Below are positions 3,690 through 6,812 of a DNA stretch of 7,002 bases, piece by piece. The stretch covers positions 1 through 7,002 of the forward strand of contig JACPQY010000034.1 in the NCBI GenBank assembly GCA_016190245.1. Direction: 5' to 3'. Every line of letters begins with the position of its first letter. The stretch's first letter is position 1. The position numbers and the translations under genes are program-made. This DNA comes from Nitrospirota bacterium (lineage in GTDB: Bacteria; JACPQY01). The notes beneath the pieces were generated by a model that made no database searches, was not told the DNA's origin, and worked only from the letters and a program-made list of their open reading frames with translations.

Positions 3690-4958
3690 GTGATCGAAAA
3701 CATCCGCGCGGAACTCAAGGCCCGCTTCGTCGAGCGCGACGACGTCATTGACGGCGCACTCACCGCCTTCCTGTGCCGCGAACACGTCCTGATCCTGGGC
3801 CCGCCCGGCACCGCCAAGAGCATGCTCGCCCAGGAGATCTGCCGGAGATTCGGCGGCCTCCGCTATTTCCGTTGGCTGCTGACCAAGTTCACCACTCCCG
3901 AAGAGCTCTTCGGTCCCGTCAGCCTTAAGGGTCTGGAGAACGACCGCTACGTCCGAGTGACGGCCGGCAAACTGCCCGAGGCGAACGTGGCCTTTCTGGA
4001 CGAGGTCTTCCTGGCGAACTCCTCCATCCTCAACACGCTCCTTACCCTCATCAACGAACGAAAGTTCTTCAACGGCGACCAAGCCGTGGACGTCCCGCTG
4101 ATTACGCTGTTTGCCTCGTGCAGCGAACCGCCGAAGTCCAAGGAACTCGGCGCGTTCTACGACCGGTTCCTCTTTCGATTCCAGGTGGGCTACGCTCGAG
4201 AGGATCGGAACTTCAAGAGGATCCTCACGCTGGAGGAAAACGCCGACTCTGTGCCTATCATGAAACCCTCACCCCCACCCTCCCCGCCTGTCCGATCCGC
4301 CACGGCGGACGGACGGGCAGGTCCCTTTCAGTCCGCCACGGGCGGAGAGGGAGTTCTCCGCCGGCCGGCGGAAGAGGGTCAGGGTGAGGAGATCCGGGCT
4401 TGGGCACAGGGGGCTTGGGACAGGCTTTTGGGCGTGACGGTGCCGGAGTCCATGCTGGACCTGCTCGCATCGCTGAGAAAGCGGCTGAACGGCCTGGGCA
4501 TCGTCGCATCCGACCGCCGGTACAAGCGGAGTCTGGGCGCGCTGCGCGCGCACGCGAGGATCCATGGCCGCGACGCCGCGACGCCGCGGGACATGGAGAT
4601 CCTGAAGACCATCCTTTGGACCACACCGGAGGAAGCCGAGAAAGTCGCCGACGCGATCGACGAGGTGGTGTTCCCCTCGCAGCACCGGGCGCAGCGCTGC
4701 CTCGACCAAGTGACCGAACTGAAGCGCGATCTGGAAGAGACTTACTATTCGGATGAAGAGCGCGCCGCCGTCGCGCGCGAGGCGCTCCACAAAGTCGAAA
4801 AGCTTTCGCAACGGATTCGCGATCTGGCGGCGGCCGACCGCTCGTCTGCTCCCGAGTCCGGCGTCAAGACAGTCGTCGCGCACTTCCACGATGTCGCCGA
4901 GACCGTACGGGCTCTCTGCAAGCAATTCCCCCCTCCGCATTCGGCCCAAGCGGGATGA
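3690..4958 (+). CDS. MoxR/RavA-like AAA+ ATPase carrying a repeat insertion
   Basis: This 422-residue protein is a MoxR-class AAA+ ATPase closest in pattern to RavA. Walker A is GPPGTAKS at 37-44 and Walker B is VAFLDE at 100-105. NTLLTLINERKFFNG at 115-129 is strongly conserved in the family. Arginine-finger candidates are Arg159 and Arg163 in YDRFLFRF. The sensor-1 strand reads FASCSEPP (141-148), where relatives usually have Asn. The lid domain includes ASDRRYKRSLGALRAHA at 273-289 and a RavA-like LW at 309-310. Residues 193-234 are a Pro/Gly/Arg-rich stretch encoded by a palindromic repeat inserted in frame between the ATPase core and the lid. The start is GTG at 3690, four bases after the radical SAM stop; the next Met (45) lies inside Walker A. 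The ribosome site is weak, so translation is probably coupled. MoxR ATPases work with VWA proteins as chaperone or cofactor-insertion machines, and one follows here. Confidence 0.88.
   Translation: MIENIRAELKARFVERDDVIDGALTAFLCREHVLILGPPGTAKSMLAQEICRRFGGLRYFRWLLTKFTTPEELFGPVSLKGLENDRYVRVTAGKLPEANVAFLDEVFLANSSILNTLLTLINERKFFNGDQAVDVPLITLFASCSEPPKSKELGAFYDRFLFRFQVGYAREDRNFKRILTLEENADSVPIMKPSPPPSPPVRSATADGRAGPFQSATGGEGVLRRPAEEGQGEEIRAWAQGAWDRLLGVTVPESMLDLLASLRKRLNGLGIVASDRRYKRSLGALRAHARIHGRDAATPRDMEILKTILWTTPEEAEKVADAIDEVVFPSQHRAQRCLDQVTELKRDLEETYYSDEERAAVAREALHKVEKLSQRIRDLAAADRSSAPESGVKTVVAHFHDVAETVRALCKQFPPPHSAQAG
4267..4389. repeat. In-frame palindromic repeat element inside the ATPase gene
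   Basis: The ends are inverted repeats: 4267-4282 (CCTCACCCCCACCCTC) and 4374-4389 (GAGGGTCAGGGTGAGG) pair at 14 of 16 positions. The span is 123 bases, exactly 41 codons, with no stop in the ATPase frame. Inside are TCCGCCACGGCGGA at 4296-4309 and a CCGCC-rich palindrome around 4332-4345. The blocks CCCTTTCAG (4323-4331) and GAGAGGGAGTTC (4345-4356) recur in inverted orientation at 6790-6811. The encoded Pro/Arg/Gly stretch is unlike the flanking ATPase. No target-site duplication is evident. Confidence 0.8.
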
Positions 4959-5062
4959 GCCCCGCAACGGAGGCACGGTCTGCGCTCATGGTCAGCCCGT
5001 CGAACCCTGAGCGGGGCCGAGCCTACCGACGGACCGCTCATCCTTCGACAAGCTCGGGATGA
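4955..5062 (+). CDS. Possible 35-codon bridging ORF between ATPase and VWA genes
   Basis: An ATG at 4955 overlaps the ATPase stop codon (ATGA, 4955-4958). It opens a frame of 35 codons that ends at a TGA (5060-5062) overlapping the ATG of the VWA gene (ATGA, 5059-5062). The peptide ends HPSTSSG and is mostly repeat-derived. It may be the remnant of the original VWA start, shifted out of frame by the repeat, or a coupling relay that brings ribosomes to the VWA start. There is no good Shine-Dalgarno site at 4955, which suits stop-start coupling. It is unlikely to make a functional peptide. Confidence 0.35.
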   Translation: MSPATEARSALMVSPSNPERGRAYRRTAHPSTSSG

Positions 5063-5069
5063 GCGGTCC
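5031..5069. repeat. Dispersed palindromic repeat at the VWA gene start
   Basis: GGACCGCTCATCC (5031-5043) and GGATGAGCGGTCC (5057-5069) form a perfect 13-bp stem around a 13-base loop. The core TTCGACAAGCTCGGGATGAG is of a kind seen as intergenic repeats in many GC-rich genomes. A degenerate partner, CGAACCCTGAGCGG, lies upstream at 5001-5014, so the inserted unit may extend from about 5000 to 5069. The VWA start codon lies in the right arm of the stem, where RNA folding could hide it. Confidence 0.75.
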
Positions 5070-6498
5070 TGGCGAAATCATTCGGCCCGGCGAGATCAGA
5101 AACATCCTCTGTGGCCACGGGCTGGCCGTGCGGTGTGACTCCCTGGATGTGGAAGCCTTGGAGGAGAACCTTGCTCCCGAGGACCGCGAACGCGTTGTGG
5201 CCACGATCCCGCGTCTGCCTGCGGCCGATCGTCTCCTCCAAGACCTGTTCTCCATCTTCTTCAAGGCTGCGATCCGACTCCACGCATACGACCAGCTCAG
5301 TCCCTCGGCGATGGGAAACAGACTCCTGATCGAAGCCACCCTCCGCTCAACCGGCTACGCAGAAAAGAAACGAGGGACTGTGCTGAACGAACGAGCAGCC
5401 ACCGGCGCTGCCGTAGCGACGTTGGAGAAACTGGGCCGGGAAATGGACAAGCTGAATCTCTCCATGGCCGGCCGTCTGCACCGCCTGGAGGCCGACCTCG
5501 CCCGCAGGCTGGACCACCTGACAGGCCGGAACAACGACGGCGATGCAGCCTACTCCGCCTGGAAAGGCACCCGGCAGGGAGCCGAATTCGGTGCCATCGA
5601 TGACAACCTCCAGTGCCCTCCACACGGCAAGCTCACCCTCGACGCTCAGCCTCTCCCACGCGGGACACGCTCGCTGGGTTGGGGGCCGCTGAGCGGCGAC
5701 CTCCCGGCCGCACTCCCGCCGCATGAGCGGATGGCCCTCGAGCGGCAGATCATGACGCTGGAACGGTTCCGAAGGTTCCTTCGGATGCTGGTCGAAATAC
5801 CCCCCAGGGCGGGCGATACCCTGCGGCGCATCCTTCGTACCGAATCGAACGAGACACACGACATCACGATGGGCAACGAACTCGGCAGGCTTCTGCCCAT
5901 GGAATTGACCGCGCTCGCCGGCCGGATCTCAAGGAAAGGATTCTTCAAGCGTCTGCGGGACAGCGAACTGCTCCAGTACGATCTCTCGACCTCTCCCCGG
6001 CCTGGACCGCTCGTCGCTTGCGTGGACACCAGCCACTCGATGGAAGGTGAGAAGGACCTGTTCGCGAAAGCACTGGCCCTCGCCTTCAGCCAAGCGGCCC
6101 TCGAACACGAACGAACCTTCCGCGCGATCCTCTTCGGCGCGAAGAACCAGCCGCCCCGGGTCGTGTCGTTCGAGCGGCCGCGATCGGAGGACTTGATCGA
6201 GCTTGCGGAGTTCGCCTTCGGGGGCGGCACGGACTTCGAGCTTCCCCTTCGGACGGCGATGCGAATCCAGGAAGAACACGTCGGCGAAGGGGGAGACATC
6301 GTTTTCCTGACCGACGGACGGTGCGCGCTTCCACCGGGTTTCGCGGACGAGATTCTCAGAGAGAAACGCCGCCTCGACGTCCGTATCACCGTGATTGTGA
6401 TGGATGTGGGCGAGAGTACGACACTCACCCTGCAGCCACCGCTGAGCGACGCCGTCTATACAACCGGCCAACTGCTCGCCGCCGAGGGAAGCACCTGA
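5059..6498 (+). CDS. VWA domain protein, ViaA-like partner of the MoxR ATPase
   Basis: This 479-residue protein has a helical N-terminal part (about 1-310) and a C-terminal VWA domain (about 315-475). The metal-ion-dependent adhesion site is DTSHS at 323-327, Thr391 in GGGTDFE and Asp419 in FLTDGR, so all five metal-site positions are filled. ELGRLLPMELTALA at 274-287 and the LLQYDLS segment at 304-310 just before the VWA domain resemble ViaA, the partner of RavA. The family usually has SGS where this protein has SHS. Without signal peptide or membrane segment it is likely cytoplasmic. The start is uncertain. ATG 5059 is the first usable codon in frame, has no clear Shine-Dalgarno site and lies in a repeat arm; the next in-frame GTG is codon 24. 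Paired with the ATPase upstream, it would recruit or remodel a client enzyme, possibly the radical SAM protein. Confidence 0.85.
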   Translation: MSGPGEIIRPGEIRNILCGHGLAVRCDSLDVEALEENLAPEDRERVVATIPRLPAADRLLQDLFSIFFKAAIRLHAYDQLSPSAMGNRLLIEATLRSTGYAEKKRGTVLNERAATGAAVATLEKLGREMDKLNLSMAGRLHRLEADLARRLDHLTGRNNDGDAAYSAWKGTRQGAEFGAIDDNLQCPPHGKLTLDAQPLPRGTRSLGWGPLSGDLPAALPPHERMALERQIMTLERFRRFLRMLVEIPPRAGDTLRRILRTESNETHDITMGNELGRLLPMELTALAGRISRKGFFKRLRDSELLQYDLSTSPRPGPLVACVDTSHSMEGEKDLFAKALALAFSQAALEHERTFRAILFGAKNQPPRVVSFERPRSEDLIELAEFAFGGGTDFELPLRTAMRIQEEHVGEGGDIVFLTDGRCALPPGFADEILREKRRLDVRITVIVMDVGESTTLTLQPPLSDAVYTTGQLLAAEGST

Positions 6499-6524: not shown

Positions 6525-6562
6525 GGAGCGATTCCGCCTGCCCGCCGTGGCGGGATCGCTCC
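6525..6562. repeat. Hairpin after the last gene of the operon
   Basis: GGAGCGATTCCGCC (6525-6538) and GGCGGGATCGCTCC (6549-6562) pair at 13 of 14 positions around a 10-base loop, 26 bases after the VWA stop. No T-run follows, so it is not a standard intrinsic terminator, although it may end or protect the transcript. The core CCTGCCCGCCGTGGCGGGA is the reverse complement of a motif like that at 4297-4321, so it is probably also a member of the dispersed CCGCC/GGCGG repeat set. Confidence 0.6.
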
Positions 6563-6574
6563 GTGATTTCGGAC

Positions 6575-6735
6575 GCATGGGAATGCCACGTAACATGCCC
6601 CGCATCCCCTTGCCGAGGAGGGCGTGGGGCCATGCAATGTCGCCGCGTCCGCCGCGGCGGAGATGGCGCGGCATGTAACATGGCCTGCGGGGCTTCATCT
6701 CGTGGCACCATGCCCTCCGTGGCAAGGTGCCATGC
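6575..6735. repeat. Cluster of imperfect CATG-rich inverted repeats
   Basis: This stretch has no credible gene. The 31-base segment 6604-6634 matches the reverse complement of 6701-6731 at about 23 positions, including CCTTGCC and GGAGGGC blocks. Between them is a perfect 14-bp palindrome, TCCGCCGCGGCGGA (6648-6661). GTAACATG occurs twice (6590-6597 and 6675-6682), and TGGCACC/GGTGCCA (6703-6709, 6726-6732) forms a further stem. The segment looks like an old folded repeat or a nested set of repeat copies. Short ORFs across it are Cys/Arg-rich by composition and not believable proteins. Confidence 0.55.
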
Positions 6736-6750
6736 TGATCGCCGCCCTTC

Positions 6751-6770
6751 TCCGCCGCGGCGGACGGGCT
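6751..6770. repeat. Copy of the TCCGCC(A/G)CGGCGGA palindrome
   Basis: TCCGCCGCGGCGGA at 6751-6764 repeats the palindrome at 6648-6661 exactly and differs by one base from 4296-4309 inside the ATPase gene. It is followed by CGGGCT, similar to the ACGGGCAGG that trails the ATPase copy. This supports one repeat family scattered through the region. Confidence 0.6.
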
Positions 6771-6780
6771 GATCCTTTCC

Positions 6781-6812
6781 GAGGAGAGGGAACTCCCTCT
6801 CCCTGAAAGGGC
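6781..6812 (-). repeat. Partial inverted copy of the element found in the ATPase gene
   Basis: Read on the minus strand, this segment has CCCTTTCAG (complement of 6803-6811) and GAGAGGGAGTTC (complement of 6790-6801), the same two blocks in the same order as 4323-4331 and 4345-4356. The part between them is shorter here, and the outer CCTCACCC arms are missing. Confidence 0.55.

Follow-up and report, generated by a model that had tools for sequence, protein, structure and literature searches.

REPs are known to lie within conserved genes of several species, where some of them, or clusters of them, encode 43-82 aa, and neutral placement in linkers or loops has been suggested (Di Nocera et al. 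2013, PMC3733652). The same work reported REPs nested in other palindromes and GTAG REPs that go with RAYT transposases. Rickettsia palindromic elements (RPEs; RPE-1 and others) are about 100-150 bp long, have terminal inverted repeats and add tens of residues in frame to conserved proteins (PMC2229807, PMC10969869). We analyzed a stretch of 7,002 nucleotides, called the window here, in which the gene for a RavA-type ATPase contains a palindromic unit. The window is the whole of one 7-kb contig in a single MAG (3.29 Mb, 86 contigs, about 85% complete). It contains the following features:

3690-4958, + strand: RavA-type MoxR AAA+ ATPase gene with the insertion, 422 aa (Pfam bpMoxR/AAA_5/AAA_lid_8)
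4267-4389, + strand: composite palindromic repeat, 123 bp, in frame, residues 193-234; second copy at C49:1660-1782 (115/123); absent from 79 homologues
4267-4282, + strand: left arm of the outer stem, CCTCACCCCCACCCTC, pairing with 4374-4389 (14/16)
4283-4321, + strand: first nested palindrome, CCCGCCTGTCC..GGACGGGCAGG, 39 bp, whose core (4289-4314) is the 51-copy repeat
4322-4352, + strand: second nested hairpin, TCCCTTTC..GAGAGGGA, from the fold; empty counterpart at 6791-6811
4332-4346, + strand: TCCGCCACGGGCGGA, held within the second nested hairpin
4357-4372, + strand: third nested palindrome, TCCGCCGGCCGGCGGA, from the fold
4374-4389, + strand: right arm of the outer stem, GAGGGTCAGGGTGAGG, pairing with 4267-4282
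5059-6498, + strand: downstream, an intact gene for a ViaA-like VWA-domain protein, the RavA partner (VWA_2; NCBIfam ViaA 59.8 bits, below cutoff)
6791-6811, - strand: inverted arm without the nested palindrome, the empty form of 4322-4352

Pfam places the core of the ATPase at residues 3-179 and the lid at 255-323. The protein matches RavA both in sequence (PDB match, E=4e-51) and in fold, with a structure model that aligns to E. coli RavA (3nbx) with a Z of 33.2 and an rmsd of 9.4 over 338 aligned residues at 32% identity. Its score of 205.6 bits falls below the NCBIfam RavA equivalog cutoff of 681 bits; the ATPase is RavA-like, not the enterobacterial equivalog. Between this gene and the viaA-like gene there is a palindrome, GGACCGCTCATCCTTCGACAAGCTCGGGATGAGCGGTCC, at 5031-5069, and it includes position 5059, where the viaA-like ORF begins with an ATG. 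This start codon may be supplied by the repeat, or the true start may be further downstream. At the contig end (6915-7002) are two 27-bp repeats, CCGGTTCACCCCCACGTGCGTGGGGAC, spaced 61 bp apart. They probably mark where a CRISPR array begins or ends, and by eye the repeat is type I-E-like.

A sequence-only reading of this DNA had described a 123-bp unit at 4267-4389 with terminal inverted repeats matching at 14 of 16 positions, and our analysis reproduced both. The first 16 bases match the reverse complement of the last 16 at 14/16, a value reached by only two 123-bp frames of the window, this unit and a palindromic stretch from 6645. The unit folds strongly as RNA (-86.6 kcal/mol, z -7.66 against shuffles) and as DNA (z -6.23, with 0 shuffles as good), and an Rfam scan returned no match. 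There is no target-site duplication of the kind that marks a classical MITE, the 20-bp flanks sharing a word of 3 bp at longest. The addition of about 41 residues in frame, also claimed earlier, is borne out by a unit of 41 codons (residues 193-234) with no stop in the ORF at 3690-4958. Walker A, Walker B, DRF and the lid SDRR are all intact, as that reading had said of the motifs on both sides. The coding score is 44.7 before the unit, -0.7 inside it and 31.7 after it, and at least three of the six frames of the element in ravA are stop-free. The frame, intact on both sides, suggests that the insert is tolerated. These data also bear on the idea that ravA is a pseudogene or was inactivated by the insert, with a frame left open by chance in stop-poor, GC-rich sequence. 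Although three of the six element frames being stop-free and an insertion close to the ATP-site hinge speak for this, the gene has 422 codons without another stop or frameshift, its coding score past the insert is strong and the catalytic motifs are preserved, which makes inactivation unlikely.

Alignment of the ATPase with 79 homologues from many phyla showed that the insert is missing from every one of them. The core-lid segment is 73 residues long in the window protein versus a median of 33 and a maximum of 50 in the homologues, and the excess of 40 over the median agrees with the 41-codon unit. Aligned with E. coli RavA, the query has 51 residues between the aligned parts versus 12. Identities to the ATPase were at most 47%, and no ravA orthologue was near enough to show an empty site at the DNA level. 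In an AlphaFold model built on a 41-sequence alignment (mean pLDDT 88), most of the core and lid has values above 90, and ten-residue blocks over 181-230 have pLDDT of 41-62 and no secondary structure. The earlier suggestion of a flexible linker is supported by this model, in which the segment is unstructured between confident domains. One alternative is that the 41-residue loop was recruited for a function and kept by selection, for example by tuning the core-lid hinge or partner binding. In its favour, no stop breaks the frame, and the two domains and the ViaA-like partner gene appear undamaged. However, the segment occurs in none of the 79 homologues and is predicted to be disordered, and the near-perfect DNA palindrome, together with a 93.5% identical intergenic twin, argues for recent arrival, so that we regard a selected function as quite improbable. 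Misjoining of the contig at a genomic repeat is less probable again, to the point of being very doubtful. The MAG is rich in repeats and the window is an entire contig, but the flanks encode consecutive parts of one protein in the same frame, and the loop remnants fit the homologues, without loss or duplication of any domain.

Rather than a simple repeat, the 123-bp unit is a composite in which palindromes are nested. Inside an outer stem, CCTCACCC..GGGTGAGG, lie the 39-bp palindrome and a pair of short palindromes of the form TCCGCC..GGCGGA. Across the genome we counted 263 sites for the pattern TCCGCCN0-6GGCGGA, compared with 11 for a reversed-pattern control. The proposed shortened inverted copy at 6781-6812 is indeed inverted, but it is a copy of one inner arm (4326-4352) only. 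The arm at 6791-6811 reads AACTCCCTCTCCCTGAAAGGG and does not have the nested GCCCGTGGCGGA segment, and because this segment is missing we read 6781-6812 as an empty version of the inner arm. The intergenic end of the window (6534-6770) contains a cluster of more TCCGCCNNGGCGGA-type palindromes.

We searched the genome for further copies and found many, comprising a second full-length copy and 51 cores. The full-length copy (C49:1660-1782) is identical at 115 of 123 positions (93.5%) and sits between two acyl-CoA dehydrogenase-like genes. A protein match over 187-252 had hinted that it shares flanks with ravA; this was rejected, since the flank alignments are within the shuffle range and the neighbours are acyl-CoA dehydrogenase-like. 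The whole composite is present at two unrelated loci and was therefore copied in one piece. For its 26-bp core, TGTCCRRTCCGCCACGGCGGACGGAC, the genome has 51 copies, compared with 0 for a reversed-pattern control. We fetched the neighbourhoods of all 51 and called genes with a purpose-written Markov-model gene finder, which recovered the five window genes, four of them with the same ends as in the ORF list; for the TetR gene it chose a later start. Forty-two cores are intergenic, two overlap gene ends and seven lie in ORFs. In the examined sequence, 14.3% is non-coding (about 86% coding), which gives a binomial P of about 3e-27 for the intergenic excess. Thus, the core is a short palindrome with many copies that are predominantly intergenic, as REPs are. 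Gene orientation at the intergenic copies (25 unidirectional, 9 convergent, 5 divergent) showed no strong bias against a background of 100/28/36.

Credible in-gene cases number about 3 of the 51. Five of the nine copies in or overlapping ORFs were discarded as in-gene insertions, as they reflect N-terminal over-extension or doubtful ORFs. Apart from ravA, an in-frame copy lies in a GT9 gene at C79:93418 (Pfam PF01075 at 133-364), whose protein has about 64 extra residues relative to solved GT9 structures. This copy is read from the opposite strand and is part of a composite other than that in ravA, so the family uses no fixed frame. At C25, a copy forms the C-terminal tail of a predicted protein that we take to be transcription-repair coupling factor-like. 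At C28:15997, a core copy lies between two 3-hydroxyacyl-CoA dehydrogenase ORFs joined in one frame (L055, G000 C28:15041-16480, minus strand), a possible repeat-made gene fusion. The sequence-only reading had likened the unit to the in-frame palindromes of Rickettsia. The in-frame insertion of a repeat into coding genes stands, for ravA and GT9; a preference for genes like that of RPEs is not seen, with only 7 of 51 copies in predicted ORFs and 42 of 51 intergenic. Because it is overwhelmingly intergenic, the family is REP-like rather than RPE-like. True kinship with RPEs is the least probable of the readings and hardly credible: RPEs are described (PMC2229807) as 105-146 bp long, with terminal inverted repeats and in-frame placement, all of which the unit matches, but the family is GC-rich, mostly intergenic and found in different frames and orientations, in a comparison made with RPEs by description only.

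Alignment of the 51 cores showed one core within different host palindromes, at least three of them besides CCTCACCC..GGGTGAGG. The hosts are:

CCTCACCC..GGGTGAGG: the outer stem of the window unit
GTAGCCGCGGGCTT..CAGCCCGCG: GTAG-tagged, about 30 copies
CCCCCCATCCTCTCCGCC: 3 copies
GTTCGAGCG..AGTCGAGAAC: 2 copies

With CCTCACCC at its start and GGGTGAGG at its end, the window unit lacks the GTAG/CGTC end tags. Because only the other host, GTAGCCGCGGGCTT.., has the tag, we class the window unit as REP-like and not as a GTAG REP. Among 60 sampled genomes, 14 also contain the motif of the outer stem, CCTCACCCN1-3CCCTCTCC; most of these belong to other phyla, and this part is therefore not lineage-specific. 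The motif is abundant (19-91 copies) in five genomes related at the domain level only (G030, G032, G041, G019, G049), which suggests a palindrome type that is widespread across phyla. The empty GTAG host, TAGYCGCNGGCTTNAGCCNGCG, is present in 17 copies in this genome; the sister genus has 75, and the one genome of it that we searched contained no core. A further empty form, GTTCGAGCGAAGTCGAGAAC, is at C62. On the evidence of one sister genome, the empty host state is most simply ancestral, and for the approximately 30 filled GTAG copies, amplification of one composite is a simpler reading than separate insertions. The 39-bp core might itself be the mobile element, a REP parasite that homes to other REPs, in their loops or arms. 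The resulting Russian-doll composites would afterwards spread as wholes and in some cases end up as segments of proteins; we offer this tentatively, as a real possibility that falls somewhat short of being probable. Beside several GTAG-type composites (L099, L088 and L100 in G000), a module encodes the recurring peptide GAPVxRGTAGFEPA in one frame. A tRNA-like origin of this module was considered and dropped, as ARAGORN found 0 tRNA in 17 loci.

Y1 (HUH) transposases are candidates for moving these repeats, and there are eight such genes in this genome and seven in the sister genus. Most of the eight have GGGGTCA-like terminal inverted repeats like the published TIRYT type (PMC3733652). As carriers of the repeat at their ends the eight were rejected, with CCTCACCC-type repeats near only one (C22), and none of the eight was found to be tied to the window composite. 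One of the seven Y1 genes of the sister genus (about 180 aa) has GTAG REPs as its immediate flanks, which makes it a REPtron as defined in the literature. The arrangement supports mobilization of the GTAG host by RAYT; by extension, we infer the same for the window composite.

Taken together, the 123-bp unit is very probably a composite, REP-like mobile palindrome, presumably spread by RAYT-type copying, that landed in frame by chance in a loop of ravA and persists as a tolerated linker. The copying would have been the work of a single-strand transposase (HUH/Y1, RAYT-type) that uses the foldback structure and makes no target-site duplication. Chance landing in a length-variable surface loop between core and lid would then have produced a disordered linker of 41 residues. 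Such a landing is tolerable because the unit is 3x41 bp and at least three of its six frames are stop-free. The protein is probably affected only mildly, if at all.

With this locus, the range of protein-coding palindromes now includes a deep phylum that is poorly sampled (two genomes). It provides a tractable series of empty GTAG REP, filled REP, composite and in-gene copy, which shows short foldback repeats building on one another and becoming protein loops, here at an AAA+ hinge. The order of events is testable, as the sister genome has empty hosts only. Bacterial MITEs (Correia/NEMIS, ERIC, RUP) are similar in being 70-300 bp long with TIRs, strong foldback and in-frame fusions, whereas the unit has no target-site duplication and consists of modular nested palindromes, not IS-derived ends. 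RPEs share the size, terminal inverted repeats and in-frame insertion in conserved proteins. By contrast, nearly half of them are in ORFs versus about 3 credible of 51 here (PMC2229807, PMC10969869), and the family described here is GC-rich and has no fixed reading frame, a distinction drawn from RPE descriptions, not sequences. Closest are the intragenic GTAG/CGTC REPs, which are likewise short palindromes, mostly intergenic and occasionally in frame within conserved genes (PMC3733652). The window unit differs in its untagged outer host, in having one core in several hosts and in its host gene, ravA. Intragenic REPs and REPs inside palindromes are already published; here the nesting can be followed unusually clearly.
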